Origin: Bacteroidota bacterium
GTDB lineage: Bacteria > Bacteroidota > Rhodothermia > Rhodothermales > Bin80
DNA length: 39,152 bases
Assembly: GCA_026709065.1 (NCBI GenBank)
Contig: JAPOTS010000096.1
Location: forward strand, 1 to 39,152
Reading direction: 5' to 3'
The notes under the pieces are model-generated. The model did not search any database. It was not told the DNA's origin and saw only the letters and a program-made list of their open reading frames with translations. This document shows, piece after piece, positions 91-18,847 of the stretch (positions are counted from its first letter, which is position 1; every line of letters starts with the position of its first letter). The position numbers were made by a program, and so were the translations under genes.

Positions 91-945
91 TCAAGCACCA
101 AGGAAAGGTTCAATGTGGAGTTCCCCCATCCCGTATACTGTTCCCTTACCAAGATGACTCCATTGCGCCGCAGATAAAAGTGGCCATAGATTCCCCGGCC
201 CGTCAGGTAGGAAAATTGATCCAGTCACACCAAATAGTTCAACCTCATTCTGTTGTGTAGCTGACCAACGTACAAGATTACATTTTTCACCAATCCACTT
301 ATTCGCGACAATCTGCTGAGATTCTTTCCTGACTGCCCGTATCATGCTTGCGTACTCATCCCCGCGATTTAATCCAGCTAATCCTGAAATTCTACGGACA
401 GAAGCAACTATCAAGTCTGTATAATTAGGAGCGTCAATCAGTTGAGATTTCTTGATTAACCTTAGGGGTACATTAGCTTGCAAAACGCACGGATTAGACG
501 AAGGATCACCAGTCAAAGGCCAGCCAATTTCTGCTAATGTCCAAGAGCGTTTCTGATCTGTATTGCTTGGAGAAATAACTATAATTTCACGAATCAAAAA
601 GGGGCTACGATCTTTACCAAGACCCATTCCACAGGCAATGTCCCATGCTCTCCAAAGCATTTTTTCATGATTTTGATTAACATTAAATAGAATCCAATCA
701 AGTGCGGGAGCGGTGTCAGGATCATAAGGCGCAGGACGAATGATATATCTTGGTAGGCTTTGTCCATCTGCTGTCTCACCTACAAATACAAGACTATATA
801 GATTTTTGTCAAGATTATTTAGGGCTCGTCCCCATACTCCGCGAATCATAGGAGTGGAGGCAAAAACATCAGGAGTTTTTAACAAGAGTCTAAATGCGCT
901 CACCTTGACCTTGTTTAACAGTAGATATAGATGTTTGCTCAGCAT
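91..945 (-). CDS. cas6: CRISPR RNA-processing endoribonuclease Cas6
   Basis: A 284-residue protein ending in the glycine-rich loop typical of Cas6 RAMP proteins (HLGKGTVYGMGELHIEP, about residues 264-280). This resembles the Cas6 C-terminal domain found with type III loci. By family knowledge it would cut the repeat RNA at the base of the CCCC/GGGG stem and leave the 8-nt ATTGAAAC handle on crRNAs. It diverges from the cmr operon with about 480 bp between starts, so it has its own promoter. The N-terminal half is less conserved, and no catalytic histidine can be assigned by eye. Confidence 0.88.
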   Translation of the reverse strand: MLSKHLYLLLNKVKVSAFRLLLKTPDVFASTPMIRGVWGRALNNLDKNLYSLVFVGETADGQSLPRYIIRPAPYDPDTAPALDWILFNVNQNHEKMLWRAWDIACGMGLGKDRSPFLIREIIVISPSNTDQKRSWTLAEIGWPLTGDPSSNPCVLQANVPLRLIKKSQLIDAPNYTDLIVASVRRISGLAGLNRGDEYASMIRAVRKESQQIVANKWIGEKCNLVRWSATQQNEVELFGVTGSIFLPDGPGNLWPLLSAAQWSHLGKGTVYGMGELHIEPFLGA

Positions 946-1425
946 GATAGAGACTTTGGTTTAGTGTTATGAAGCATCTAGGAAATGATACAATTGCAAA
1001 CAAAAGATACCCCATTAATAGGAATCACGATTATACAAGTATTACAAGTCATGCCTTATTGGAGTGATCCTATATTTTCATTCGGCATACTTCAGTCTAC
1101 CATGATCTATGATCAATGGAGTAGAATCAGATTAAGTTTGGTCGAATTAAATGAATAGTCTTTATATTTAATTCAGAACTGACATTGTCTTCTCTTCGCT
1201 ACGGCGAGACTGAAAATCATTTGAACATCTTGCACTTTCTTATCAATACAAATCGTTGATGTTGCATTTGTTCAGCTCTCATGTTAAGTTACTGCACCAT
1301 GAGGTTGCTAAATTTACTTGCTCTCTAATGAAAATGCACGAATAATTGAATAATGTTTTTAAATTGTCGGATAAATTATCCTCTTCACCAATGGACAAGA
1401 TTTGCAATTCATTGAGAGCTTAATC
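946..1425. other. Divergent intergenic region between cas6 and cmr2
   Basis: 480 bp of AT-rich sequence that must hold the promoters of cas6 (minus) and the cmr operon (plus). I find no repeat copy, no strong hairpin and no clear sigma-70 promoter. A 10-codon ORF (ATG at 1391, TAA at 1421-1423) ends just before the cmr2 start; it is probably chance. Confidence 0.5.
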
Positions 1426-3984
1426 ATGTTTAATAAATTTGAGACGGACTGGGAATTAATCTTACGGGCATGGATGCATGACCCTGTAGATAAGGCTTTG
1501 TCCATTCAGAATCATGAAAGCCGTGCTGGACATTATCTATCAGTTGCTCTCAATGATGAATCCTTTTCTATAAACCAATTCAAATCTGTCAAATCTGCTG
1601 ATATAAACGCTTCAACGGCCGATAGGCTACCAATGCCCAAAGCTGGAGTAAAAGGTGAACGAGCGGTAGGCCCTAAGGATGGCCCAATTAAGGTGTATCA
1701 TCCTATCAGTGCACAAAAGCATCAACTGGCTGAGTACGAAATAGATATGAATGGAGTTGCTGAGGTGATCAATGGAATTGTCAGAGGACTCCCATCATCT
1801 CCCAAGATCCGCTTCCTTGCACTTTGGAGACTGTTGCCAGATGCTCTCAATAAACGTTTTGGATTTGACTTTACAAGATTACCTGCAGATACAAGAGTTC
1901 CAGATCACTCACTCATTCAGCATGTAGATATTACAAGCGGATTGATGGCAGCACAACAACAGAAGCATGGTTATGCGATTTTATCTGTGAAAATTGGCCC
2001 AGTCCAGAAGTTTATTCAGGACGCTAGAAGTGTTCGCGACTTATGGTCTGGAAGTGCAATATTGTCATGGCTCATGTTTCAGGGGATGCGTCCAATAATT
2101 GACAGTTTGGGCCCTACAGTATTCGTTTTTCCAGCATTGCGCAGAAATCCGCTGGTTGACATTTGGTTACGCAGTTTATCTGATGAGCTTAATCAGTTGA
2201 TCAATTTGCCCTCTTTACAAACACGAAAGGCACCATCTCTGCCAAATTCATTTGTAGCTTTATTACCTAATGGTCGTGATGGTAAAACTGCACTAGAATT
2301 TACGCGTCAATGCGAGACACGTATCCGATCAAAATGGCGCGAAATGTCAAATACAGTTCTAGAAAGACTTGATAAGGAGTTTTCCAACTACGACCCAAAC
2401 TGGGCTCTGAACTGGAATGCTCAAATTGATAGTTTCCTTGAAATTACCACTTCAATATGCCCTACACATAAATTGCATGATATGGAAATGGCGAGCCTAA
2501 TTGGAGACAAAAAGACATTTGGAGAGGTATGGAAAGATGCCCATCTTGTCCGTCAAATGGGAAATGACATTCCCTCGGAAGACGCACCAATGTTTCGCCA
2601 AGTGAGTGCAGGACAATGGCAAGCTCAGTTAGAAGTTTCCTCACGGATCGCTGAAGCCCAGCGAACTGTTCGCCATATACCACAGGTATCACTGACCAGA
2701 CCTGCAGGTCCTAAATGCAGTCTAATGGGAACTTATGAGCAAGTAGGACCAGCTAATCTTCAAGAATCAGCTGACTTTTGGGCTGACATATGGGAGCACA
2801 AGTGGGAATTTCAATATAGAATTCGGAAACCTGACAGACTCTGTGCAGTCGCATTATGTAAGCGTTTTGCACCAGATTTAGTCCTTAATAATCAGTTCAA
2901 ATTGGATGAGAGTAGTGTACCATTCCCTGATACTACAACGATTGCTGCTCAACAGTGGATGGATGATTATAATATTACGGGCAATAGTGAAAAGATTTGG
3001 AATGGTAGATGGATTCACCAAAAACGCCCAGATGAAAATGGAGAATCTGCTCCAGAGGAGCTGTGGTCACAGATCAAAAGAGCAAAGAAAGACTCCACTC
3101 CCCCATCGTATTATGCCGTTCTTGTGATGGATGCAGATGATATGGGACTCTGGCTGAAAGGAGAAAAAGCACCTTTGGTCAGAGAAGTGATGCATGAAAA
3201 ATTAATTCATTATTTTGAACAATTGAAACCTAATGGACTTGAAGCTAAACGCCCTTTACATCCTGCATTACACTCGTCTATTAGCGAAGCATTAAATAAC
3301 TTTGCCAGCGTAGTAGTACCTAACACCGTGGAACGCTTTAAGGGTACTTTGATATACTCAGGTGGAGACGATGTACTTGCGCTTCTTCCGACGCGTAATG
3401 CAGTTCAGTGTGCTTTTGAATTGCAAAGAGCATTCATCGGTCAAAATGATCGATACCCTGGCTGGACAGAAATTGAAGGGCAGCAATTTCTAATGATGGG
3501 TTCCAAAGCGACGCTTTCAGCTGGAATTGCATTTGTTCATTACAAAGAAGATTTACGATTAGCATTACAGGCTGGACGAGATGCTGAAGGAAAATCTAAG
3601 TCTGTGGAGGGTAAGAATCGACTAACCCTCCATTTTATGCGTCGATCAGGTGATCATCCAACAAGCGTTATTTCATGGGATCTTGTGCCTTGGTTTCAAC
3701 AGGCCGTGAAAACATTTTCGGAGGACATCTCTGATCGTTGGCTATATCAATTGCGGCGTGAATCACACGTCCTTTCCGATCCAAATCTTCCTCCCGATGC
3801 GGTGAGTGCTGAGATTAAACGTTTGCTTTCTAGATCTGATGTAAGCGATGATGTATTCACTTTTGAAGGCAAAACTTGGTGGTCATATTTCTGTGATCAA
3901 GAGCATGAAGTGAACGATAGACTTCAGAAATTTATAAAGCTTTGTTTAGGCGCTTCATTTGTGGCCCGTGGATATGATGCATAA
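1426..3984 (+). CDS. cmr2: Type III-B CRISPR Cas10 protein Cmr2
   Basis: Large subunit of the Cmr effector, 852 residues from ATG 1426. I prefer this start to an upstream TTG at 1402 because GAGAG lies about 6-10 nt before it. HD sits at residues 18-19 in WMHDPVDKAL, the Cmr2 N-terminal nuclease motif. The palm domain has VMDADDMG (D569-D572) and an intact SGGDD (G646-D649), so cyclic oligoadenylate synthesis is expected. A mid-protein CSLMGTYEQVGP segment occupies the zinc-ribbon position but shows only one cysteine. It is the first gene of the plus-strand operon, and its end overlaps cmr3. HD cleavage activity is inferred from the motif alone. Confidence 0.95.
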   Translation: MFNKFETDWELILRAWMHDPVDKALSIQNHESRAGHYLSVALNDESFSINQFKSVKSADINASTADRLPMPKAGVKGERAVGPKDGPIKVYHPISAQKHQLAEYEIDMNGVAEVINGIVRGLPSSPKIRFLALWRLLPDALNKRFGFDFTRLPADTRVPDHSLIQHVDITSGLMAAQQQKHGYAILSVKIGPVQKFIQDARSVRDLWSGSAILSWLMFQGMRPIIDSLGPTVFVFPALRRNPLVDIWLRSLSDELNQLINLPSLQTRKAPSLPNSFVALLPNGRDGKTALEFTRQCETRIRSKWREMSNTVLERLDKEFSNYDPNWALNWNAQIDSFLEITTSICPTHKLHDMEMASLIGDKKTFGEVWKDAHLVRQMGNDIPSEDAPMFRQVSAGQWQAQLEVSSRIAEAQRTVRHIPQVSLTRPAGPKCSLMGTYEQVGPANLQESADFWADIWEHKWEFQYRIRKPDRLCAVALCKRFAPDLVLNNQFKLDESSVPFPDTTTIAAQQWMDDYNITGNSEKIWNGRWIHQKRPDENGESAPEELWSQIKRAKKDSTPPSYYAVLVMDADDMGLWLKGEKAPLVREVMHEKLIHYFEQLKPNGLEAKRPLHPALHSSISEALNNFASVVVPNTVERFKGTLIYSGGDDVLALLPTRNAVQCAFELQRAFIGQNDRYPGWTEIEGQQFLMMGSKATLSAGIAFVHYKEDLRLALQAGRDAEGKSKSVEGKNRLTLHFMRRSGDHPTSVISWDLVPWFQQAVKTFSEDISDRWLYQLRRESHVLSDPNLPPDAVSAEIKRLLSRSDVSDDVFTFEGKTWWSYFCDQEHEVNDRLQKFIKLCLGASFVARGYDA

Positions 3985-5068
3985 TCAATCCGACATATTA
4001 TGCCTATCATTGCGTCCGATTGATACCCTTTTCTTTCGGGATGCTCGTCCATTTGGGCCATCTAGGCAAGCGAACTCAGGTCTACCTTCACCTCAAACAT
4101 TGGCTGGTGCGATTCGTACCCTTCTACTTGAAGCACATGGTGTTAACCTCCAGAAATTTGGAGAAAAAGTTCGTGCAACAAAATCTTTTGATCAAGCACT
4201 CCGAGAAATGGGAGGCGATGTTTCCGCGATTGCAGACGTTAAAATTGCTGGACCGTGGTTGTGTAGGAATGAGGATATCCTAGTTTCAATGCCGGCCAAC
4301 CTAAAATCAACTAAATCATTATTGTCATCATTCACCCAAGAAGATCTTGTTCGGTTAGATCCATTAAGAACACCCCCTCACGGATGGCAACCAAAGGAAA
4401 AAGGACTGCTTCCGCTTTGGTATTATGGGAGAAAATCTCTAAAATCATTAAACGAATGCTATCTGACACTTAAAGGAATGGATGCATATCTAAACGGTGG
4501 CATACCAGAAATCAATACCATTGTCAATGTAGATAAATTGTACACGATTGACCGTCGAGTGGGAATTGGAATTGATGGAAAACTTAACACTACAGCGGAG
4601 GGATTAATTTACTCTGCAGGTATGTTGTCTCTTAAAAAAGATGTCTCGTTTTATGCTGAAGTGAAAGGTCACAGTAGTACGATTGATCCATTAAACCAAT
4701 CCAGCATACTGATGAAATTCGGGGGAGAGGGAAGACATGTGGAGGTTTCGACTCGTACAGGTGCAATTTGGCCAGAAGTATCTTCTAAGGGTGGAGACGG
4801 AAATTTATTGGTTCTTACGACACCTGCATGGTTTGATGGCTGGAAGCCTAAGAATCTTTCTTGTATGGCTGCAGCCGTCCCTGGGTTTGATGGAATTTCC
4901 GGTTGGGATTTAGCATTAGGTGGCCCAAAACCAAATCGGTTTATGGTTCAATCTGGTTCAGTTTATTATTTGCGACATAATGAGAAGTTATCACGAGATT
5001 TGGTAAATTATGATGATTCACTCGTTGGATGGGGAAAAAATTTAAAAGGAATTTGGAAATATGTATAA
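3974..5068 (+). CDS. cmr3: Type III-B CRISPR RAMP protein Cmr3
   Basis: About 364 residues. The N-terminus is typical of Cmr3: LRPIDTLFFRDARPFG followed by GLPSPQTLAGAIRTLL, the beta-alpha start of this Cas5-like RAMP subunit. By family knowledge it binds the 5-prime handle of the crRNA next to Cmr2. The open frame extends to a TTG at 3959, but ATG 3974 (or 3977) is the better start. It overlaps the cmr2 stop by 11 bp, which suggests translational coupling. Confidence 0.93.
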   Translation: MMHNQSDILCLSLRPIDTLFFRDARPFGPSRQANSGLPSPQTLAGAIRTLLLEAHGVNLQKFGEKVRATKSFDQALREMGGDVSAIADVKIAGPWLCRNEDILVSMPANLKSTKSLLSSFTQEDLVRLDPLRTPPHGWQPKEKGLLPLWYYGRKSLKSLNECYLTLKGMDAYLNGGIPEINTIVNVDKLYTIDRRVGIGIDGKLNTTAEGLIYSAGMLSLKKDVSFYAEVKGHSSTIDPLNQSSILMKFGGEGRHVEVSTRTGAIWPEVSSKGGDGNLLVLTTPAWFDGWKPKNLSCMAAAVPGFDGISGWDLALGGPKPNRFMVQSGSVYYLRHNEKLSRDLVNYDDSLVGWGKNLKGIWKYV

Positions 5069-5939
5069 CAATGCAATTATGTTTGTGCATGCTCTTACGG
5101 GGCTCCATCCTGGAGGTGGAACAGCACTTGGTGTCATTGATCTGCCAATACAGCGCGAACGACATACAGAGTGGCCTATAATCCCAGGCTCATCGCTAAA
5201 AGGTGTTCTTCGCGCTAAATGCAATGATCTGTCAGATTATCAACCTAATCAATGCCCCGATGTGTTGGCTGCATTCGGATCTGACACATCTTCCGAATCT
5301 GATCACGCTGGCGCTATGTCAATCACGGACGCTCGCATATTAGCATTTCCCGTGCGATCACTTTCTGGAGTCTTTGCTTGGGTGACATGCCCCGAGGTAT
5401 TACTACGGTTTTCACGTGACTGTAAAATCCTAAATGCAAGTAGTTTAGACAGTGTTCCTCAACCCGAAAAAGACAATGCTATCTGTAGGCGTAAGAGTCC
5501 TTTAATAGTAGGAGAGGACAAAATAATCCTTGAAGAGTTTGAGTTTTCAGTCATGTCTCACGACATAAACTTTGAATTCGCAGATAAAGCCTTTGCAGAT
5601 ATGAATACTCAAAACCGTTTTAGAGACCATCTGGTGATTTTACACGATGATGATTTCACTTATTTCGTGCGCAATGCTACGGAAGTTGTTGCCCGAATAG
5701 GGTTAAATTATGAAGATAAGACAGTACGTAAAGGAGCTCTATTTTATGAAGAATACCTGCCTGCCGAGACGCTTCTCTATGCACTTGTACTTTGCAATAA
5801 AAGTCGCCTCAATCACCATGAGCGTTCGTCTGATCAGATTTTACAGTGGTTGAATGATCAGCATATCAAATTTCTGCAGATTGGTGCTGGCGAGACGATA
5901 GGCAAAGGACTCTGTGGTATAAACATCACCCGATTATAA
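5061..5939 (+). CDS. cmr4: Type III-B CRISPR RAMP protein Cmr4
   Basis: Cas7-family backbone subunit, 292 residues. The N-terminus reads LTGLHPGGGTALGVIDLPIQRERHTEWP and then PGSSLKGVLRAK. The Asp of IDLPIQRE (D27) matches the position of the Cmr4 residue that cuts target RNA every 6 nt. The C-terminus has the glycine loop GAGETIGKGLCG. ATG 5061 overlaps cmr3 by 8 bp and has AAGGA about 10 nt upstream. An internal ATG at 5079 is a possible alternative start. Confidence 0.94.
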   Translation: MYNNAIMFVHALTGLHPGGGTALGVIDLPIQRERHTEWPIIPGSSLKGVLRAKCNDLSDYQPNQCPDVLAAFGSDTSSESDHAGAMSITDARILAFPVRSLSGVFAWVTCPEVLLRFSRDCKILNASSLDSVPQPEKDNAICRRKSPLIVGEDKIILEEFEFSVMSHDINFEFADKAFADMNTQNRFRDHLVILHDDDFTYFVRNATEVVARIGLNYEDKTVRKGALFYEEYLPAETLLYALVLCNKSRLNHHERSSDQILQWLNDQHIKFLQIGAGETIGKGLCGINITRL

Positions 5940-5948
5940 GATCATTTC

Positions 5949-6368
5949 ATGAATAAGGCTACCCAAGAACAACTTCGTGCCAGACATGCTTGGAACGTTG
6001 TTGATAAGGCATGCAATCAGCGATCAAAAGATTTTGCGGGAGATTTTGCAGCAGAAGTCAAGCGTCTTCCCATTAGGATTCGTACTGTTGGACTTGGACA
6101 AGCAATCCGTTTTGTTCTTGCAAAGTCAAAGAATGATGATCATCGTAGTTATCTGTTAATTGCTCTTGGGGAGTGGCTTTTGAAAGAGCAAAAACTTGAT
6201 ACACGGCATAGGAATGGATCTATTGATGGCTCTGCACTTATCTTGGCGATTATAAATAATGATGCGAATTTTCTGCGTAGAGCTACTGAGGAATCTCTAC
6301 TTTATCTGCAATGGCTGACACGTTTTTGTGAAGCAACTATCAAGGAAAATGGAAGTGAATCAGAATAA
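5949..6368 (+). CDS. cmr5: Type III-B CRISPR small subunit Cmr5
   Basis: A 139-residue, mostly alpha-helical protein lying between cmr4 and cmr6, the usual place for the Cmr small subunit. The N-terminus (QLRARHAWNVVDKA) and the segments PIRIRTVGLGQAIRFVLAK and YLLIALGEWLL fit the Cmr5 family. It would form the inner filament along the target RNA. It starts 9 bp after cmr4 and its end overlaps the next gene by about 20 bp. Confidence 0.9.
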   Translation: MNKATQEQLRARHAWNVVDKACNQRSKDFAGDFAAEVKRLPIRIRTVGLGQAIRFVLAKSKNDDHRSYLLIALGEWLLKEQKLDTRHRNGSIDGSALILAIINNDANFLRRATEESLLYLQWLTRFCEATIKENGSESE

Positions 6369-8634
6369 AAATATTTTGATTCGAGAAGGGCCGGTGATAC
6401 CCGACCCTACTTATTCTTTGGTCAAGGATATACTATCAGGGTCCCAAGAAAATGTCCATACCGGATTAATGCTTGATAAGTTCTCCATCTTCCCCCAGTA
6501 TAGCAGCCGCCAGAATGCGGAAGGAACTATGGAAACTCAGAAAGACGCGTTGCTGTCAATATGTGAATCTATGAGCGACCAATCTTTGTTAAGCGAATTG
6601 AATGCACGTCGAATAGCCATGCTTTCAGCGATGGATGCTCAATTACTATCAATGCGGACTCAGGGAGCGTTGACCCTGCACTTATCTCGCCCAGGCGTTT
6701 GGGAAAACGCTGGCATTTTATTACACCCGATCTATGGTTTTGTCTATTTGACAGGTAGTGGTCTAAAAGGCCTTGCACGCTCCTATGCTGAAACTGTATG
6801 GGCACCTGCTCAATCTAATGAAGAATCAGCATGGCATAGTATTGAGGAGGCGTTTGGATTTACAACCAGCTCTGAAGGGCACAAAATCCAAACACATGAC
6901 TCTGGATGGCGCCCGTCTGAGATACCTTTTCCCGACTGTACTGCCACTGGTCGTTTGATTTTTCATGATGCATGGCCTTCAAAATGGCCACAACTTGAAG
7001 TGGATATCGCAAATAGCCATCACAGTAAATACTACCAGGGTCATGGACAACACCCTGACGATACCGAAGATACAATCCCAGTGTATTTCCTTGCTGTGGG
7101 ATCAGGTGTAGAGTTTCAGTTTGCAGTTTCTGACAGGAAGCACCATTCAAACTCTCTGGTTGAGCAAGGTATTTGTTGGCTTCGAGATGCATTAATTGCT
7201 GAGGGTGTAGGCGCTAAAACCGCTGCAGGATATGGCCACTTCATTGCAGATAAGATGGTGAATGTGGCACAAAGTCATTCGGTTATTCGCAGGGAGCATG
7301 ATTTAGAGTTGATTTCCATGGCCTTTTTGGCTGGTGCAAATCAGTCAAAAGAGGATTGTGATCTTAGACCTGCTACACTACGAGGGTTGCTGCGATGGTG
7401 GTGGCGCACGATGCACACTGGACATGTTGATTTGGATACTCTGCGGAATCTGGAGTCAGCCATTTGGGGCGATACAGATAGAGGAAGCCCTGTTCAAATT
7501 TTATTGGATAGAGTATTTTCCCCAGAGATAGAACGTTTTAATAAAAATAAAATCAAACGGGATCTCAATAGTCAACATTCAGGGTATCGTGCAAATAAAA
7601 CTAATCTTGGATTAGCTTATGCATCTTATGGCATGGACGAACGGGACAGGAAGTCTCAACAACGGAAACAACGTTGGTATATGCAGCCGGGTAGCAAATG
7701 GCATCTTACTGTAAATACGAGGTCTGGATATTACATATCTGACGAGGGTAAGAAGCGATTGAAACCTGAGATTATACACCGTCAAGTTGATGCTGCACTA
7801 TGGTTATTTGCAAAATATGGGGGTGCAGGCTCAAGATCTCGCAAGGGTTTTGGCTCGTTTGAAGCTATTCCCATCAAGGGAATCAATTCCATTGACGACT
7901 GTAAAAAAATTGGCGAAAGTCTTAGAAAAAAGTGTAAAGTGTATTCTTCAGGGAATGTCAGGGCACCCAACATGGAAGAGGCAATAATATATAAATCGCA
8001 ACCAGTTACGAATTATCCTAACTTGGCTATCAGTTGGATTGGTGAGATAATTCAGAACTTTGCAAAACAACTGAAAGATGAGGGGTGTAGTAGAGAATCA
8101 CTCGGTTTACCGCGCAAGTCTAACCTTCAACGCCATGCTTCCCCTGCAGTATGGAGCCTATCACGAGATAAGAATGGAGATTTGAGTATACAATTGATTG
8201 GATTTCCGAGCGACAAGTTGCCTGACAGTGAGCAGGTCTTAAAGGATTTATGTCGTTACGCAGAAGAGAGACTCAAAGAAAAACATTTTATATCTATCTC
8301 AAGTCAACAAGAGCCGAGATCAGCCAGAGTTATTGCATCAAATCAACTAGATCAAAATATTATTTCAGCAGGAGTCGATCAAAAATCATCAAGACCCTCT
8401 ACTGGGGATCATATACGGGTCGTTGTATTAGATGAGAAAACTAAGAAAGGCAATGTCAAAGCAAAGCATTTAGATAGTGGGCTTATTGGTTCCATGGTGG
8501 ATACTAACAATGAACCTAATGATATAGAAGTAGGGCAAGAGAAGGTAGTGATTGTTCACTCTGTGAACGAAAATACTATTTCGTTCAGGTGGGAGCCGTT
8601 ACCGCGAAAAAAGAAACTATCACTACGTAAATAA
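6349..8634 (+). CDS. Fused Cmr6-Cmr1 RAMP protein with an extra C-terminal domain
   Basis: One uninterrupted frame of about 761 residues carries two RAMP subunits that are normally separate. Residues 1-300 look like Cmr6: YLTGSGLKGLARSYAE near 133-148 and the glycine loop GVGAKTAAGYGHF near 286-298. From about 310 on it looks like Cmr1: LRPATLRGLLRWWWR near 339-353, a following AIWGD segment, and a second glycine loop (GGAGSRSRKGFGSFEA near 490-505). The last 75 residues (TGDHIRVVVLDEK, then GLIGSMVD, IEVGQEKVVIVHSV and ISFRWEP) resemble a small OB/S1-like barrel; that reading is inference. ATG 6349 or GTG 6355 are the likely starts (AAGGA at 6342-6346). No separate cmr1 or cmr6 is present in the window. 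Confidence 0.88.
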   Translation: MEVNQNKNILIREGPVIPDPTYSLVKDILSGSQENVHTGLMLDKFSIFPQYSSRQNAEGTMETQKDALLSICESMSDQSLLSELNARRIAMLSAMDAQLLSMRTQGALTLHLSRPGVWENAGILLHPIYGFVYLTGSGLKGLARSYAETVWAPAQSNEESAWHSIEEAFGFTTSSEGHKIQTHDSGWRPSEIPFPDCTATGRLIFHDAWPSKWPQLEVDIANSHHSKYYQGHGQHPDDTEDTIPVYFLAVGSGVEFQFAVSDRKHHSNSLVEQGICWLRDALIAEGVGAKTAAGYGHFIADKMVNVAQSHSVIRREHDLELISMAFLAGANQSKEDCDLRPATLRGLLRWWWRTMHTGHVDLDTLRNLESAIWGDTDRGSPVQILLDRVFSPEIERFNKNKIKRDLNSQHSGYRANKTNLGLAYASYGMDERDRKSQQRKQRWYMQPGSKWHLTVNTRSGYYISDEGKKRLKPEIIHRQVDAALWLFAKYGGAGSRSRKGFGSFEAIPIKGINSIDDCKKIGESLRKKCKVYSSGNVRAPNMEEAIIYKSQPVTNYPNLAISWIGEIIQNFAKQLKDEGCSRESLGLPRKSNLQRHASPAVWSLSRDKNGDLSIQLIGFPSDKLPDSEQVLKDLCRYAEERLKEKHFISISSQQEPRSARVIASNQLDQNIISAGVDQKSSRPSTGDHIRVVVLDEKTKKGNVKAKHLDSGLIGSMVDTNNEPNDIEVGQEKVVIVHSVNENTISFRWEPLPRKKKLSLRK

Positions 8635-8642
8635 AATAACCA

Positions 8643-9980
8643 ATGGAGAAAGAGAAAGTCCCGTATATCCAGCAAAGGGTTTTGGTTCTAACCGTTGGTA
8701 CGGGAAGTGAGAAACAGTTGGAGAAGACGTTAATCAAGCCCATATTAAAGAGCATAGACGATGGCGAATGGGATACTATTATTTTGCTCCCATCTCATAA
8801 AACTTTACCTCATGCTCAAAAAATTCTTGATAGGACCAACACTTCCAATGTCATTTGTAAGCCTCTAAATATTTCTGGAATTGAATCCGATGCAGACAAA
8901 TGTTTTGGTCATTTTGATCGTGTGCTTGGTGAATTGATTCATCAGGGATTTGATCGGTCTAATATCACATTGGATTTTACCCGTGGAACTAAGGCAATGA
9001 GTGCTGCATTACTTATGGCGGGTATGTCAAGAGAAATTTCAAATATTCGCTATGTATCTGGAGATGAGCGTGATGATCGAGGAATGGTCAGGTCTGGTAC
9101 AGAGAGAATAGAGCAGGTTAACACCCGAGTGGTTGATACAAGGCAGTTACTCAATAAGTCCGAGAATCTTATGCAATGTGGCAATTTTGAAGCGGTGTGC
9201 CTCCTTCTCCAAAATAATTCTACCTCAGAATCGGCTGGATATCTATCCACATTGGAAAATGAGCTGAGAGAGATTAAAGCATCAGCTATAGTTTATCTTG
9301 CATGGGATAGATTTGATTATCAAGATGCAATTAACCAGTACAATGACAGAAGGAATCAATTTATTAATGGACGTTTTTCGCCGACTTTGGATATGCGTAA
9401 CTGGGTTGAATCCTTAGCAGATTATGATAGACACCAGTGTATTAGATCACAAACAACGTATGTACAGAAACTCTCATGTGATATGTTAGCCAATGCTGAA
9501 CGCCGCATGCGTGATGGGTTATATGAAGATGCTTACGTTAGATGTTATCGTGTCTTGGAGTTGATAGGACAGTACTGCCTCTTTAGTAACGGTTACGATA
9601 GTGGAAAACTGCCCCTTAGTGATCAAAACATTATAGCATTTGAGGAAAAACTCTTGAAAAAATCTGCAGAGCTGGGAAGAATCAAAAATGGTCAGTATGC
9701 TACAGCAGGGCGACTTCAGGTAGCCCGTTTACTTAAATTTTTGAATGATACTCGGGGGGAAAAACTTATTGATCTTGGCGATAAACACGATAGATATATA
9801 ACAAAAAACAGGAATAATAGTATATTATTTCATGGATTTACAGCAGCGAACACCGACCAAATAGCGAAACTTAATGATGCAATGAAGGATTTGGAAAATT
9901 TTTTGCTGGAGGATAGTAATTTCCCTGAGGCAAAGCAGTATTTAGATATCGCCCGAAGTATAAAATTTAGCCTAAATTAA
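8643..9980 (+). CDS. CARF-HEPN ancillary CRISPR protein, Cas02710/TIGR02710 family
   Basis: 445 residues. The N-terminal half is a Rossmann-like CARF domain: VLVLTVGTGSEKQLEKT at about 13-29 and LDFTRGTKAMSAAL with D111-K117, the ligand-pocket strand seen in this family. The helical C-terminal half ends with RNNSILFH (R390 to H397), which fits the R-x(4-6)-H ribonuclease motif of HEPN domains. Expected role: a non-specific RNase switched on by cyclic oligoadenylate made by Cmr2. It starts 8 bp after the cmr6-cmr1 fusion and 3 bp before cas1, so it is co-transcribed with both. The ring size of its ligand cannot be read from the sequence. Confidence 0.85.
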   Translation: MEKEKVPYIQQRVLVLTVGTGSEKQLEKTLIKPILKSIDDGEWDTIILLPSHKTLPHAQKILDRTNTSNVICKPLNISGIESDADKCFGHFDRVLGELIHQGFDRSNITLDFTRGTKAMSAALLMAGMSREISNIRYVSGDERDDRGMVRSGTERIEQVNTRVVDTRQLLNKSENLMQCGNFEAVCLLLQNNSTSESAGYLSTLENELREIKASAIVYLAWDRFDYQDAINQYNDRRNQFINGRFSPTLDMRNWVESLADYDRHQCIRSQTTYVQKLSCDMLANAERRMRDGLYEDAYVRCYRVLELIGQYCLFSNGYDSGKLPLSDQNIIAFEEKLLKKSAELGRIKNGQYATAGRLQVARLLKFLNDTRGEKLIDLGDKHDRYITKNRNNSILFHGFTAANTDQIAKLNDAMKDLENFLLEDSNFPEAKQYLDIARSIKFSLN

Positions 9981-9983
9981 AAC

Positions 9984-11030
9984 GTGCCAACACTCTATAT
10001 TACAGAACCTGGTGCTACAATTCGGTTCTCCTCAGGATCTATTGTCGTTACAGTTTCCAAGGATCCAGATGGCAGTGGACCATTGCCGACCAAGACCCAG
10101 CAACTAATTGAAGTAGAACCCCACCGTATAGAGCTCATTGCAATCGTAGGACGGATCCATATTACAGGTCATGCTGTTCGATTTTGCCTTGAAAATGGAA
10201 TCCCTGTGTCATGGTTCAAGCGAAATGGAGATTATTTGGGAAGAATGGTACCTGAACTTTCTCGTACAGCTGATATTCGCTTAGCACAGTATTCAACAGC
10301 AACTGATGCCAATCAATCACTGGCATTAGCAAAAGAATTCGTATCTGGTAAAATTCATAATTCCATTCATGTGCTGTCATCCATTCGTTCAAATCGCCCG
10401 AGTCATCCAGAACTTGGTTCTTCTCTGAATCGATTAAAGTCACTTCATGACGCGGTCTCAGATGTGACAGATCTATCATCATTATTAGGGTATGAGGGAA
10501 CGGCTGCACGAACTTATTTCAGTGGGCTTAAAGTTGGATTTGATGGTGAAATTCCGTTTAATGGTCGTGAAAAGAGGCCTCCACCCGATCCATCAAATGC
10601 TTTGTTATCATTGGGATATGTAATTTTGACAAATTGGTTGGCAAGCACAATAGAGTCTCATAATTTGGATCCATATCTTGGGTTTATGCATCAGCGTAGA
10701 TCAGGACGACCAAGTTTGGCATTGGATCTATTGGAAGAATTACGTGCACCAGTCGTAGATCGTTTTGTACTTAGAATGTGTAATCGTAGACAGTTGAGGA
10801 TGGAGCATTTCGAGAACGACTCGGAGGATAGAGGAGTTAGGCTTACTCGAAGCGGCTTGAGAATTTTCTTTCGTGCTTGGGAATCTATGTTGGACAAGCC
10901 TATTGCAGGGATTAGAACTGAGGATTCCCTTGAATCAATGATACGTTACCAAGTAAGTCTACTATCAAATCATTTAAGGCATAAAGAGAAATATCGTTCG
11001 CTTCGCCTTGGACAGGCATCCACACATTAA
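9984..11030 (+). CDS. cas1: CRISPR adaptation endonuclease/integrase Cas1
   Basis: 348 residues with a GTG start, 3 bp after the CARF-HEPN gene. Catalytic-site signatures are visible: E171 in GYEGTAARTYF, H236 in LGFMHQRRSGRPSLALDLLEELR, and the acidic pair D248/E251 after it. The N-terminal beta domain precedes GRIHITGHAVRFCLENGIPV. With Cas2 it inserts new spacers at the leader-proximal repeat. The protein is of normal length and is not fused to a reverse transcriptase. Confidence 0.95.
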   Translation: MPTLYITEPGATIRFSSGSIVVTVSKDPDGSGPLPTKTQQLIEVEPHRIELIAIVGRIHITGHAVRFCLENGIPVSWFKRNGDYLGRMVPELSRTADIRLAQYSTATDANQSLALAKEFVSGKIHNSIHVLSSIRSNRPSHPELGSSLNRLKSLHDAVSDVTDLSSLLGYEGTAARTYFSGLKVGFDGEIPFNGREKRPPPDPSNALLSLGYVILTNWLASTIESHNLDPYLGFMHQRRSGRPSLALDLLEELRAPVVDRFVLRMCNRRQLRMEHFENDSEDRGVRLTRSGLRIFFRAWESMLDKPIAGIRTEDSLESMIRYQVSLLSNHLRHKEKYRSLRLGQASTH

Positions 11031-11647: not shown

Positions 11648-14043
11648 CTATCAATGACTGCCCCGCTCATCAGGGGATTGAAACTCACTGGTCCTAGGAG
11701 AGATTGGATTTCATTTTCTTTTCGGCTATCAATGACTGCCCCGCTCATCAGGGGATTGAAACAGAATGTAAATAAATACTTCGTATAACATAGTTAGTAT
11801 ACTATCAATGACTGCCCCGCTCATCAGGGGATTGAAACCATAAATTTCATCATAACAGGTATCGCACTCCATCAGATCTATCAATGACTGCCCCGCTCAT
11901 CAGGGGATTGAAACGATGAGGTAGGTCCCTAAGAAGCGATCAATCAGGTGCCTATCAATGACTGCCCCGCTCATCAGGGGATTGAAACCTCGCATTAAGC
12001 GCGTCCTGAAAACTGTCGTGGGATTGCTATCAATGACTGCCCCGCTCATCAGGGGATTGAAACGGTTGGTGACGCATTAACAGCGTCCTGGAATGATTCG
12101 TCTATCAATGACTGCCCCGCTCATCAGGGGATTGAAACCACAGTGATGTATTGGTCCATTGGTTTAATGGATGTATCTCTATCAATGACTGCCCCGCTCA
12201 TCAGGGGATTGAAACACTTAATGGTGACGGGGCCGCCGGTAATAGATGTATCCGCCTATCAATGACTGCCCCGCTCATCAGGGGATTGAAACGATATGAA
12301 GACTTACAGGTTGTGATATAATTATACTCAACCTATCAATGACTGCCCCGCTCATCAGGGGATTGAAACCGGTTGGGTCTGCAATAGGGTAACGCTTGAG
12401 AATTTTAATTCTATCAATGACTGCCCCGCTCATCAGGGGATTGAAACTATTGTAAAAGACTGGATAACCCGGACGTGCTTTAACAACCTATCAATGACTG
12501 CCCCGCTCATCAGGGGATTGAAACGTTAAGCGCATCCTGGAAGCTGTTGTGGGATTGGTTACTATCAATGACTGCCCCGCTCATCAGGGGATTGAAACTA
12601 CTGCTTTACAGATGGACGTGATGCCATGCTTAAAGCATTCTATCAATGACTGCCCCGCTCATCAGGGGATTGAAACAGACACGTCCATTTTCATTCTTGA
12701 ACCGTCTTCATATCCATCTATCAATGACTGCCCCGCTCATCAGGGGATTGAAACCGTTCGTGATTGGATCGAGAAGTTGCAAGATTTCTTGCTATCAATG
12801 ACTGCCCCGCTCATCAGGGGATTGAAACCCATTCTTTAGCTTGGGGTGATAATTGCTGTAACAGCTATCAATGACTGCCCCGCTCATCAGGGGATTGAAA
12901 CTTATGTATTGATCTCTCATGAGATTTAGGTATGTATCCTATCAATGACTGCCCCGCTCATCAGGGGATTGAAACCTACTCCATAGTTCATTTACAACTA
13001 AGATGAAACCTGAAATTCTATCAATGACTGCCCCGCTCATCAGGGGATTGAAACAGAGTCTTGGATCCGTTTTGTGGAACGGGTGGCCTCCTGCTATCAA
13101 TGACTGCCCCGCTCATCAGGGGATTGAAACATATTGCACAAGGCGCTGAACAGGATCCAAAAGCCCTTGCTATCAATGACTGCCCCGCTCATCAGGGGAT
13201 TGAAACATGTCGTCTACTGAAGACATAGATATCACTACCATAGTACTCTATCAATGACTGCCCCGCTCATCAGGGGATTGAAACTTCGGGGAGTCGTTCA
13301 GGTGCCAGTGACACCGACAGCCTATCAATGACTGCCCCGCTCATCAGGGGATTGAAACAGTGGTATAGCAATCCTTTTAGGTCGTTATACTGACTCTTCT
13401 ATCAATGACTGCCCCGCTCATCAGGGGATTGAAACGAGCACTGTTTGGTAGTGATGGAACGTTCGTTAGTCTCCTATCAATGACTGCCCCGCTCATCAGG
13501 GGATTGAAACCTTGCGAGTATCATATCATTATTAAATCGGCACAATGGACTATCAATGACTGCCCCGCTCATCAGGGGATTGAAACTCAGTAGTACTTGT
13601 AGAAAGCACTACCATTGTACTCCCACTATCAATGACTGCCCCGCTCATCAGGGGATTGAAACTGACGAGAAGCTGATTTAATCTTGGGACGTAGTGCTGT
13701 CTATCAATGACTGCCCCGCTCATCAGGGGATTGAAACTCATCCGTAGTGGATGAACTGATCACTACCATAGTACTCCTATCAATGACTGCCCCGCTCATC
13801 AGGGGATTGAAACCTTGACAGTATACTCGCCAAGACGGTTTACTGGTTTCAACACTATCAATGACTGCCCCGCTCATCAGGGGATTGAAACTGGTTTGGT
13901 GGTAACTTCACGTGAGTTCTGCTTACCCCCTATCAATGACTGCCCCGCTCATCAGGGGATTGAAACACCACCTTTTTCAAGGTCTTGTGCGAGGGCTTCA
14001 AGTCTTCTATCAATGACTGCCCCACTCATCAGGGGATTGAAAC
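11648..14043 (+). CRISPR. Type III-B CRISPR array, 32 repeats and 31 spacers
   Basis: The repeat is 37 nt, beginning CTATCAATGACTG and ending GGGGATTGAAAC, and looks identical in all copies except the last. Spacers are 36-42 nt. Inside the repeat, CCCC (14-17) pairs with GGGG (26-29) and TCAAT (4-8) with ATTGA (30-34). Cutting after the GGGG gives the ATTGAAAC crRNA handle of type III systems, so transcription is on the plus strand. The 32nd repeat (14007-14043) has one change in the loop (G18 to A), as is usual at the old, leader-distal end. Related spacers are described under findings. Confidence 0.98.
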
Positions 14044-14078: not shown

Positions 14079-14116
14079 TTGTCAATTGGCTCCCCTGCTC
14101 ATCACGGCAATTGAAC
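14079..14116 (+). repeat. Decayed 33rd CRISPR repeat
   Basis: After a 35-nt spacer-like stretch (14044-14078) comes a sequence that aligns with the array repeat: it keeps TCAAT, the CTCATCA loop and a TTGAAC end, with many substitutions and small shifts. It now has a 7-bp inverted repeat, TCAATTG/CAATTGA. Its spacing (72 nt from the previous repeat start) matches the array period, so it is most likely an eroded terminal repeat. Confidence 0.75.
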
Positions 14117-14143
14117 AGAATTAATTTGCATCCCATTGATCCT

Positions 14144-15040
14144 ATGAAAAATCTTAACCTATTTTCTATAGTCGTTACTTTGCTATTTATTACATTTGAG
14201 GGGTTTCATTCAGCATTTGCCCAGAGTTGCAATTTCTCTTATGGGGCTTCGTCGCAAAACACTTCCTTGCAGAGTTCTTCCAACTCGTACTCAGTCCAGA
14301 GCTTAAATGTCCCGTGCTCAAGCCAGAGTAATATCAACCTGTACTCCGGTCAGAGCTACTCTAACCCGTCCTCCGATCAGAACTACTCTAACCCATACTC
14401 AGGTCAGAACTACTCTAACCCGTACTCCGGTCAGAACTACTCTAACCCGTACTCCGGTCAGAACTACTCTAACCCATACTCAGGTCAGAACTACTCTAAC
14501 CCGTACTCCGGTCAGAGCTACTCTAACCCGTACTCCGATCAGAACTACTCTAACCCATACTCAGATCAGAACTACTCTAACCCGTACTCCGATCAGAACT
14601 ACTCTAACCCGTACTCCGATCAGAACTACTCTAACCCGTACTCCTATCAGAACTACTCTAACCCATACTCAGGTCAGAACTACTCTAACCCGCACTCAGG
14701 TCAGCGTCCCTCTAACTCGTTCTCAACCCAGAGCGATATTGACCAGTACTCTATAATCAGGTTACAGGAACTTGTGCGTGGTGTCGTACCATTTGAATAC
14801 GAAGCAAAACGCCACAGGCAGTATTTAGAGGACCTCAGAGGGAAATTATGGTCTGCTTGTATCAGAGGAAACGGAGTTTGGGGGCCAACCCCAGAAGAAT
14901 GTACTGAAATAAAAAAGGATATTCAGGAAGAAATGGACAAGGTGAAAGCTACGATAGACTATTATTCTGGGCGTGCAAACGAATATTATAAGATGATGAA
15001 TGAGTACGGCGGAGATCCCCGTCGGAGTAATAACGATTAA
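14144..15040 (+). CDS. Exported low-complexity protein with tandem 9-residue repeats
   Basis: 298 residues from ATG 14144. A signal peptide (MKNLNLFSIVVTLLFITFEG, cleavage near AFA-QS) is followed by a Ser/Asn/Tyr/Gln-rich region with about 14 units of QNYSNPYS(G/D), then a charged helical C-terminus of about 100 residues containing two Cys (WSACIRG and PEECTEI). The family is not recognised. The repeat region is likely extended and surface-exposed (inference). The gene starts 27 bp after the decayed CRISPR repeat, so its promoter must lie in or before the array end, or it is read through from the array. An upstream TTG at 14111 is in frame but would put extra residues before a good signal peptide. 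Confidence 0.72.
   Translation: MKNLNLFSIVVTLLFITFEGFHSAFAQSCNFSYGASSQNTSLQSSSNSYSVQSLNVPCSSQSNINLYSGQSYSNPSSDQNYSNPYSGQNYSNPYSGQNYSNPYSGQNYSNPYSGQNYSNPYSGQSYSNPYSDQNYSNPYSDQNYSNPYSDQNYSNPYSDQNYSNPYSYQNYSNPYSGQNYSNPHSGQRPSNSFSTQSDIDQYSIIRLQELVRGVVPFEYEAKRHRQYLEDLRGKLWSACIRGNGVWGPTPEECTEIKKDIQEEMDKVKATIDYYSGRANEYYKMMNEYGGDPRRSNND
14351..14728 (+). repeat. 27-bp tandem repeats inside the low-complexity gene
   Basis: About 14 head-to-tail copies of a 27-nt unit (AACTACTCTAACCC followed by a variable TACTCCGGTCAG-like half). Units differ mainly at CCA/CCG with TCA/TCC and at the GGT/GAT/TAT codon. Runs of identical neighbours suggest recent expansion. Because 27 is a multiple of 3, copy-number changes keep the frame. 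Confidence 0.9.
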
Positions 15041-15249: not shown

Positions 15250-18200
15250 TCATCGAAAATGTACAAAGCGACCTGTCTGACTTTCTCTGCCCAGTGACGA
15301 TTGGGTTACCACTTGATACACATAGAGCCCTGATGGCAATGTCTCGGTATTGATAGATAACGTCTTTGACCATCCAGCCTCCATTTGCCTTTCTGGAAGG
15401 CTCAAAACCTTCCTTCCACTGATATCTGTGACCTCTACCTTGAGATGTGCTGAAGATGGAAGATCAAACGTCAGTAGTGTGTGATCCTGAAAAGGATTGG
15501 GATAATTACCATGAAGTGTAAATACTTTAGGCATAGATTCATCTTCGTTTGATACGGATGAACGAATATCCATCTTGAAGGATAACCGCCCCACAGCTCC
15601 ACTGTCATCCCTGGCTGAATACGTGAATTCAATCGGCATCTCAGTGATGGCCGATGGCGTTCCAGTCAGGGTGCGTGTTGATGACTGAAAACGCAACCCA
15701 CTTGGTAACGATGGGCTAATTGAATAGCTGATTGGTTCAATACCACTAGTGACAACTGGGAAAATCACTGGGGTGATTGGATGGTCTAAGACAAAATTCT
15801 GATCCTCTATTGGATGACTAAAAGCAAGGATACCGCATGTGCTACCCCGTACATTGGCAATCCTTTCCAACCATGCCTGATACTCCCTATCCTGAGGCGC
15901 ACATAACCCCTGCCCTTCAAACAAAAATGTATCCAGACTATCTAGGGCTAAAAGCTCTCTTGGTAGCGAACCACTAAAATCATTGTCTGAAAGATTGAGC
16001 CGCGTTAATCTCGTTAAACGTCCTAACTCAGACGGAACTCTACCAGATAATTGATTGCCTGACAAGTCTAATATTGACATCTTGGAAAGACTGGTAAGTG
16101 CAATTGGAATAGATCCCGTCAATGAATTTTGTGAAAGATCCAATAGCTCAAGATTCGTAAGATTTTTAAGTTCGGATGGGATCTCCCCTGTTAAGGAATT
16201 TTCTGGTAGAACAAGCCATTTCAAATGAGTGAGATCTCCGAACTCTATCGGAATCGTACCAGATAATAAATTCTCTCCCAAGTCAAGATACATTAGTTGG
16301 GGTAGTGCTCCCAGTTCGTGAGGAATTTGCCCTGATAACTGATTGTCACGTAACCCCAACCATTCAAGCTTCCAAAGATTTGACAGATCTAGGGGGATTT
16401 CACCCGTTAATGAATTTCCTTCAAGATTGAGCGACTTCAACTCGGATAGATTTCCCAGAGAAGCGGGAATGTCGCCATTAAACGAATTATCAAATATATC
16501 TAATACTCTTAGATGGCTCAGTTTCCCCAGCTCAGCAGGAATTGGGCCCGAAAGTGAATTCACTGAAAGATTCAACCTCTCCAACTCAGTAAGCCTCTGA
16601 ATTCCATCGGGGATTAGGCCCGAAAGCCTATTTCCCGACAATAACAATGTTCTTAACTGAGTAAGATTTGTTAGTTCATCAGGAATTTCTCCAACTAAAT
16701 TATTGTACTGAAGATTTAGCTCAGATACCCATCCATCAATTATCGTGAGACCATACCACTGCTGAAGCTCTTCTTCATTTGGAATGTCCCTGATATTCCA
16801 ATTAGAATTGTTACGCCATCGGTCGCCTGCAGTTCTAGTATACAAAACACTTAAACTATGGTGAATGGCTTCTATTGAACGATTAATAGGAAGTGAGAGG
16901 ATATGAGCAATATCTTCAATCCCATCCCCCTCAACTCGCGTATAGAATCGGACTCTTTGATTCGGCATTGCATCTGCTGTAACCCTAAACTCAAAGATCG
17001 CTTCGGCGGAATCTGCACCTGACAAGCCTCCAATAGAAACTTGATCTGTGGTCATCTCAAGAAATGAATAGGAGGACATGGGAATAATGGATACAGAGAC
17101 ATTAGAAGCATCCGAGAGATAATTAACAAAATTCGCCTTTATTTTAACATGATCTCCAGAGGTAATGCTTTGATTTCCATCATCATCTACCCATGACCAT
17201 TCTTTCAAACGAATTCCAGAAATTACGGAGTCTTGAACTACTGATAACGCATTGATAAAACCCCGTCCTAATTGTTGACGATACGCTGGATTCTGAGCAT
17301 CTATACTTTCTGCCGTGAATCGAATTTTTTCACGAATCGCATCGGGGGACAGATCTGGAAATTTCGTCTTCACAAGGGCCGCTACTCCAGAAACCAATGG
17401 AGCAGAAAATGAAGTTCCACTCACCTTTATGTACCGATTATCTGTTGCTGTCGTCAAAACAGACACGCCTGGAGCAAAAACGTCAACCAATCGTCCAAAA
17501 TTTGAGAATCTTGAGATCTGAGTGCTTCCTTTTTGGGTTGCACCAACTGAAAGAACTCTTGAGTGACCTGCAGGATAATAGGCAAATCGATCTATATTTG
17601 ATGCATTATTGCCTGCTGAAGCAATGATGAGTGCACCCATATCTGTGGCTAAATCCAACGATTGATTCATGAACTGAACATTCGAAATCTCGTCCACAAA
17701 ACCTCCCCAACTTACATTAATGATATCTGCTCCATTTGATGCCGCATAAAGGATTCCCTGATAGCCATATTTAATGCCTAAGCCAGATTCATGAGATGCG
17801 TTTATATGCATCAACGATGCATTCCATGACGTACCAGCAATTCCAATACGATTATCCGTCACCGCGGCTGCAATTCCAGCGGTCGCAGTTCCGTGCCAAG
17901 TAGGGGGAGCAACATTAGGTTGCCTGTCTGGATTGTTATCAGCTTCATCGTCATCCGATAAATCAATCCCATGAACATCATCAATAAATCCATTATGATC
18001 ATCATCTATACCATTGCCTGGGATTTCATCCTCATTTGTCCAGACATTTTCTAAAAGATCTTCATGCGCCCACTCTCCACCCCCATCCACGATGGCAATG
18101 ACTATTTTTGGATTCGCTGATTCACTTTTAACCTCATCCCAGACATCTGGAAACCCCATCTGATGGAGATCAACTTGCGATTCAAATTCTGGGTCATTCG

Positions 18201-18639
18201 GATCGGCGATCCCTATCAATGAATAGGTGTGTAAACGATGAATTACCACAGGCTCTGCATAAACAACTCCTTGAACAACAGAGAAACTCTCAGATACTTC
18301 AAGCGGAGCAACCTGTGCATGATAACGGACATAGTAGGTTCGTCGAAGGGCTAATAAATTTTTCCGAGTCGTTGGGGTTGGAGTGACGTGATCCAAGAAC
18401 GGATAAACACGCTCTATTTCATAGACTTCAAAGGTTGATCCCATCTGATCAAACGCAATCATCCCCGTATGGAGAGATTTTCTCTGAATATGTATCGTTG
18501 AATCAAACTGCACAATCACTACGCCAGATTGCACCTCGGGTATTCTCTGAGCAGACGAAACCGAAACAAAACACACAGAGACCAGACCAACGAATACCGC
18601 TAGGATATGACGGGAGCAGATACACCGTTTCATAACCAT
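15250..18639 (-). CDS. Exported subtilisin-like serine protease with leucine-rich repeats and T9SS sorting domain
   Basis: About 1129 residues from ATG 18639 (AGGG 7 nt upstream); an upstream in-frame ATG at 18744 would put 35 residues before the signal peptide. Order: signal peptide ending VSSAQ; peptidase S8 domain with catalytic D185 (AIVDGG), H249 (TWHGTATAG), the oxyanion-region NVSWGG and S410 (SGTSFSAP); 11 plant-type leucine-rich repeats with the L-x-G-x-IP pattern (about 635-910); a putative Ig-like domain (about 940-1025); and a T9SS type A sorting domain beginning near VFTLHGNYPNPF (about 1040-1129). It is probably secreted or surface-anchored through T9SS and degrades or binds external protein. 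It stands alone, convergent with the repeat-protein gene. Confidence 0.9.
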   Translation of the reverse strand: MVMKRCICSRHILAVFVGLVSVCFVSVSSAQRIPEVQSGVVIVQFDSTIHIQRKSLHTGMIAFDQMGSTFEVYEIERVYPFLDHVTPTPTTRKNLLALRRTYYVRYHAQVAPLEVSESFSVVQGVVYAEPVVIHRLHTYSLIGIADPNDPEFESQVDLHQMGFPDVWDEVKSESANPKIVIAIVDGGGEWAHEDLLENVWTNEDEIPGNGIDDDHNGFIDDVHGIDLSDDDEADNNPDRQPNVAPPTWHGTATAGIAAAVTDNRIGIAGTSWNASLMHINASHESGLGIKYGYQGILYAASNGADIINVSWGGFVDEISNVQFMNQSLDLATDMGALIIASAGNNASNIDRFAYYPAGHSRVLSVGATQKGSTQISRFSNFGRLVDVFAPGVSVLTTATDNRYIKVSGTSFSAPLVSGVAALVKTKFPDLSPDAIREKIRFTAESIDAQNPAYRQQLGRGFINALSVVQDSVISGIRLKEWSWVDDDGNQSITSGDHVKIKANFVNYLSDASNVSVSIIPMSSYSFLEMTTDQVSIGGLSGADSAEAIFEFRVTADAMPNQRVRFYTRVEGDGIEDIAHILSLPINRSIEAIHHSLSVLYTRTAGDRWRNNSNWNIRDIPNEEELQQWYGLTIIDGWVSELNLQYNNLVGEIPDELTNLTQLRTLLLSGNRLSGLIPDGIQRLTELERLNLSVNSLSGPIPAELGKLSHLRVLDIFDNSFNGDIPASLGNLSELKSLNLEGNSLTGEIPLDLSNLWKLEWLGLRDNQLSGQIPHELGALPQLMYLDLGENLLSGTIPIEFGDLTHLKWLVLPENSLTGEIPSELKNLTNLELLDLSQNSLTGSIPIALTSLSKMSILDLSGNQLSGRVPSELGRLTRLTRLNLSDNDFSGSLPRELLALDSLDTFLFEGQGLCAPQDREYQAWLERIANVRGSTCGILAFSHPIEDQNFVLDHPITPVIFPVVTSGIEPISYSISPSLPSGLRFQSSTRTLTGTPSAITEMPIEFTYSARDDSGAVGRLSFKMDIRSSVSNEDESMPKVFTLHGNYPNPFQDHTLLTFDLPSSAHLKVEVTDISGRKVLSLPERQMEAGWSKTLSINTETLPSGLYVYQVVTQSSLGRESQTGRFVHFR

Positions 18640-18847
18640 TTGATTGCCCTGAAGTACATCTAACCCAATTTCAGTGAAGGCCTTTAAAGCACTGATGATG
18701 GATTGGATTATTGATAGCATGAGCCATGAAAGAATTTTACTCATTCCGAAATAAACAAAATTCTTGCCCTCTATGGAACATTTCAGTCAACCGTTCATAT
18801 ATTGTTGGATGGGTATACCTTTGGGTATTATGTTGGTGTTTGGTGAA

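Follow-up and report, generated by a model that had tools for sequence, protein, structure and literature searches.

The CRISPR locus and its array

The window (the whole stretch of DNA analyzed, 39,152 nt) encodes a cas gene cluster followed by a CRISPR array (Table 1). Judged from profile matches, Cas10/Cmr2, Cmr3, Cmr4, Cmr5, Cmr6, and Cmr1 are all present, and the locus is a complete one of type III-B. In the Cas10 translation, where motifs were read directly, GGDD occurs as YSGGDDVLALL and an HD dipeptide lies near the N-terminus. The locus combines the GGDD motif, predicted to serve cyclic oligoadenylate synthesis, with a CARF effector. The Cas1 protein matches Cas1 profiles alone, and no reverse transcriptase was detected in the cas1-cas2 cluster. 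Reverse transcriptase hits in this genome sit on two contigs (C75 and C115), outside the CRISPR locus. The one on C75 is group II intron-like and interrupted by stop codons, and the one on C115 is a long ORF with an RVT_1 domain that is possibly a defense-type reverse transcriptase.

Table 1. Features of the CRISPR locus, with positions in the window
Feature	Position	Strand	Evidence or reading
cas6, putative endoribonuclease (crRNA processing)	91..945	-	Pfam PF10040, E 4.9e-9
Cas10/Cmr2, GGDD palm motif and N-terminal HD dipeptide	1402..3984	+	TIGR02577, 239 bits
Cmr3	3959..5068	+	PF09700, TIGR01888
Cmr4	5061..5939	+	TIGR02580
Cmr5	5949..6368	+	PF09701, TIGR01881
One ORF with Cmr6-like and Cmr1-like RAMP domains	6328..8634	+	TIGR01898 (residues 108-305), TIGR01894 (residues 327-512)
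CARF-HEPN effector of the Csm6/TIGR02710 kind	8643..9980	+	TIGR02710, 109 bits; PF09670
Cas1, 348 aa, without reverse transcriptase domain	9984..11030	+	TIGR00287, 273 bits
Cas2-like ORF, 95 aa	11033..11320	+	assigned from position and appearance
CRISPR array	11648..14043	+	32 repeats of 37 nt, all identical except the one at 14007, which has a single mismatch; 31 spacers; predicted leader at low end
Spacer 5, family A	11989..12026	-	antisense QSHDSFQDALNA
Spacer 6, family A	12064..12101	-	antisense ESFQDAVNASPT
Spacer 12, family A	12525..12561	-	antisense NQSHNSFQDALN
Spacer 21, family B	13207..13247	-	antisense STMVVISMSSVDD
Spacer 26, family B	13587..13625	-	antisense GSTMVVLSTSTT
Spacer 28, family B	13738..13776	-	antisense STMVVISSSTTD

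The repeat terminates in ATTGAAAC, and degenerate repeats are found at the high-coordinate end of the array (14007 and about 14076). For repeats of this kind we take such an ending, together with distal degenerate repeats, to place the leader at ~11647 and the crRNAs on the plus strand. On these grounds crRNAs carrying the 5' tag ATTGAAAC should be produced from the plus strand. On its own, the repeat has no distinctive predicted fold (z -1.43).

Two families of related spacers

Spacers 5, 6, and 12 (family A) are related, as a preliminary description of this DNA had proposed; the coordinates, spacer numbers, and three peptides that it gave were all correct. Spacers 5 and 12 are identical at 28 of 33 aligned nucleotides (local score 44), spacers 5 and 6 at 22 of 31 (local score 27), and spacers 6 and 12 at 17 of 26. 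For comparison, the array-wide maximum local score over 200 shuffles had a median of 21, a 95% level of 25, and a maximum of 35. The earlier count of four differences between spacers 5 and 12, three of them at third positions, needs revision: there are five, of which four are synonymous third-position changes (AAT/AAC had been overlooked). The D/N change reported between these spacers stands.

For every pair in family A, the same minus-strand frame is the best of the six. It reads QSHDSFQDALN/QSHNSFQDALN for spacers 5 and 12 and DSFQDALNA/ESFQDAVNA for spacers 5 and 6. Over whole codons the latter pair differs only by D/E and L/V, and a serine is preserved via a three-base switch (AGT/TCA). 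BLOSUM sums in this frame are 53, 38, and 32, versus at most 39, 22, and 18 in the other frames, and pairs show one to two amino acid changes alongside three to four synonymous codons. Under random substitutions, a frame score of this size has p 0.0023 for spacers 5 and 12 and p 0.0029 for spacers 5 and 6; with positions fixed and bases random, the values are 0.005 and 0.057. The ends of the family A spacers are shifted by 5, 7, and 12 nt.

We identified a second related triplet of the same pattern, absent from the preliminary description, in spacers 21, 26, and 28 (family B), which have up to 17 identical nucleotides in common. The family B antisense frame (STMVVISMSSVDD/GSTMVVLSTSTT/STMVVISSSTTD) is gap-free and scores 40, 43, and 32, with two to four amino acid changes and two to four synonymous codons per pair; spacer ends are shifted by 3, 3, and 6 nt. 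Because the sense frame is open as well, although with lower scores (27, 23, and 19), the orientation of family B is less certain than that of family A. Another antisense frame, EYYGSD/EYNGSA, is attractive by eye but was rejected, as it scores 24, 20, and 15 versus 40, 43, and 32 for the STMVV frame, which needs no gap. A sequence in IMG/VR (L071) ends in KYNGSAFYDTNP, which resembles this rejected frame.

Overall, one antisense frame is best for all pairs in both families, and the simulated p per pair is 0.002-0.03 with random positions and 0.004-0.06 with fixed positions. Given that the spacer ends are offset (3-12 nt overall), we regard the families as separate captures and not as duplications within the array. 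True duplications in relatives look different: two arrays (L277 in G003 and L279 in G005) each contain an identical spacer duplicated at adjacent positions. Both families thus consist of related spacers with differing boundaries and a common coding frame. The suggestion made earlier for family A, that diverged homologues of one coding site were captured repeatedly, is well supported by the synonymous pattern and the offset boundaries, and family B strengthens it. Three further pairs in the array (7/8, 29/30, and 11/15) did not rise above the shuffle level.

When 31 spacers were drawn uniformly from a 5-kb source in a Monte Carlo simulation, two triplets within 12 nt arose with P 2.5e-4; with a source of at least 10 kb, they arose in 0 of 20,000 trials. 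Uniform sampling from any source of at least 5 kb would not be expected to give two such single-site triplets (p <= 2.5e-4). As kinship is recognizable only when spacers overlap, the small offsets within families are partly a detection effect, which touches only the closeness of the offsets and spares the number of related spacers.

Strand and source of the targets

An open antisense frame is present in all 31 spacers and an open sense frame in 26 of them. A codon model favors the antisense strand in 20 of the 31 (sign-flip p 0.019-0.022), and the antisense bias is also found when families A and B are left out (p 0.005-0.009). This array-wide bias is moderate evidence, since strand calls by the model on 39-nt pieces are right for only 62% of viral and 78% of host pieces. 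Not every spacer fits the antisense rule, and spacer 19 (13055-13093), a clear exception, appears to code on the sense strand, opposite to families A and B; here the sense strand reads RVLDPFCGTGGLL, with a methyltransferase motif (Pfam UPF0020, E 0.01). For both triplets we infer that plus-strand crRNAs would be complementary to the target mRNA, as had been proposed, and the array as a whole points weakly the same way.

No protospacer was found with blastn and tblastn searches of phages and plasmids, in IMG/VR with degenerate patterns, in GTDB genomes with one pattern, or in relatives at the DNA and protein levels. Within the organism's own genome there is no self match to the spacers and therefore no autoimmunity conflict. 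Pfam and PHROGs profiles run on the short peptides returned nothing for either family, with family B scanned in the rejected EYYGSD frame. Because the peptides have just 12-16 residues, the target gene cannot be named.

The GTDB pattern [..]SFQDA[x]NA had 42 matches, none with the flanking residues. In our reading, several of these lie opposite other conserved genes, as open frames on the antisense strand; one match is the gpT also found in IMG/VR (see below). A match in G423, in a glycosyltransferase-like gene, was set aside as an antisense coincidence. Some weak similarities at the DNA level turned up in relatives, G047 among them and some to spacer 28, but none makes coding sense.

The single lead to a target, for family A, is the N-terminus of the Mu-like major capsid protein gpT (PF10124). 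In IMG/VR, 16 of 18 matches to a FQDA[x]xA[ST]PT-type pattern are gpT N-termini (for example, SKAFQDALTATPTDW), and the 10-residue part FQDA[LV]NASPT scores 17.1 bits on the gpT profile, a value reached by 3e-6 of background windows. However, the whole 16-residue composite scores 5.8 bits, where genuine gpT sequences score at least 22.4, and its NQSH clashes with the hydrophobic residue found in 79 of 79 gpT sequences. Moreover, of 294 relatives only one gave a gpT hit, and that a partial one; the gpT N-termini of Salinibacter phages fail to match family A, and the motif was picked after the fact. We consider gpT an unlikely target.

Origin of the spacer families

The locus is a known kind of system, and its two triplets apparently record that related invaders, most likely phages, infected repeatedly. 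We consider it quite probable that each family comprises independent captures from one coding site as it occurs in diverged relatives of a single invader, and that the crRNAs pair with the mRNA of that gene. The phage source, transcription on that strand, and selection bringing captures to one site are what we infer here. Cas1-Cas2 would integrate DNA fragments in either orientation, and cells would retain spacers antisense to transcribed invader genes, as those alone would activate Cas10. Activated Cas10 would then produce cyclic oligoadenylate, which would switch on the CARF-HEPN nuclease. Families of related spacers could arise if sequence variants of the invader infected recurrently and selection favored a productive target, one that is conserved or well transcribed.

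Two studied systems bear on this mechanism. Thermus thermophilus type III also has Cas1 without reverse transcriptase and spacers of 35-42 nt; there, spacers come from both strands and the strand bias arises from selection (PMC7515739). Retained spacers in Thermus are antisense to phage transcripts and clustered, which we count as a likeness, whereas the phage was known and the bias measured in that work, and here we deduce diverged variants of one site from the array. Because the cas1-cas2 cluster likewise lacks a reverse transcriptase, selection for functional DNA-derived spacers is the likely cause. Type III-B immunity requires spacers antisense to transcripts, and the system of Marinomonas mediterranea resembles the one described here in its Cmr-type effector with this need; unlike the Cas1 of this locus, its RT-Cas1 can take spacers from RNA (PMC5576922).

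Arrays with similar repeats are present in several relatives. One parallel is in the relative G014 (L289/L283), which shares the type III-B layout, a similar repeat, Cas10, RAMP proteins, a Csm6-type HEPN protein, and Cas1. It also has a long two-stretch RAMP ORF (L289, 13471-15828) resembling the Cmr6-like/Cmr1-like ORF. In contrast to the triplets, related spacers in the G014 array (L283) occur in pairs only. Pair 4/5 reads ISGVAVFR/ISGVALFR on the antisense strand with five synonymous codons, and its score of 34 is marginal against a shuffle 95% level of 35. Pair 9/12 is related at the DNA level (score 28; shuffle maximum 30, 95% level 23), with no clear frame. From these pairs, related-spacer families may recur in loci of this kind, although this is not established. 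None of 92 spacers from the genomes of five relatives is related to family A or B.

The related spacers could instead derive from repeats inside a single gene, or from paralogues in one invader, and not from diverged relatives met over time. This would account for diverged motif copies and for clustering without a hotspot, and it agrees with the Monte Carlo rejection of uniform sampling from one genome. We nevertheless find it fairly unlikely, as two triplets would need two repeat families, and array positions 5, 6, and 12 and 21, 26, and 28 represent different times if addition is leader-proximal, a pattern that one invader met repeatedly could still produce. Chance similarity, or a noncoding conserved DNA element, is extremely improbable. 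The sequences are short, and 15-nt words do recur in large collections (45 matches to a 15-nt family B word), but a score of 44 was never reached in the array-wide shuffles and 34 is near the maximum of the 200. Furthermore, the differences are of a kind that the codons tolerate, AGT/TCA serine switches among them, and this holds in one frame only.

Capture might also be steered to the site, either through a preference of Cas1-Cas2 for certain sequences or DNA ends, or by an older crRNA that matches in part and draws new capture there (priming). Both triplets are on the same strand with offsets of at most 12 nt, uniform sampling is rejected, and crRNA 12 could still bind RNA matching spacer 5, with four G-U pairs and one mismatch. 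We think steering quite unlikely, given the overlap needed for recognition, which in part explains the small offsets, and the explanation of strand and position bias in Thermus by selection (PMC7515739). Type III-A tolerates six mismatches in some settings (PMC5754349); in light of this tolerance, and of the slight mispairing of crRNA 12 with spacer-5 RNA, near-duplicate spacers are not obviously needed. Independent captures from diverged relatives raise the question of why a mismatch-tolerant system keeps near-duplicates, for which escape, a hotspot, or priming could be considered. It is very unlikely, in our estimate, that type III systems re-capture, in a priming-like feedback, at sites which an older spacer already matches in part, and so build a variant series for one mRNA site.

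Families A and B show that the array alone, through comparison of its related spacers, can reveal the coding strand and frame of a target, with no protospacer needed. Such comparison offers a test of the type III antisense rule in uncultured hosts, and the variant series is apparently a record of repeated meetings with diverging relatives of one invader.

Other genes in the window include an ORF just past the array (14111-15040) with many tandem YSNPYSGQN-like short repeats and no Pfam match. A large predicted subtilase (15250-18744) has leucine-rich repeats and a type IX secretion sorting tail, and a further ORF (28434-30062) has an N6/N4 DNA methylase domain and also matches, weakly, an Mrr-type endonuclease.
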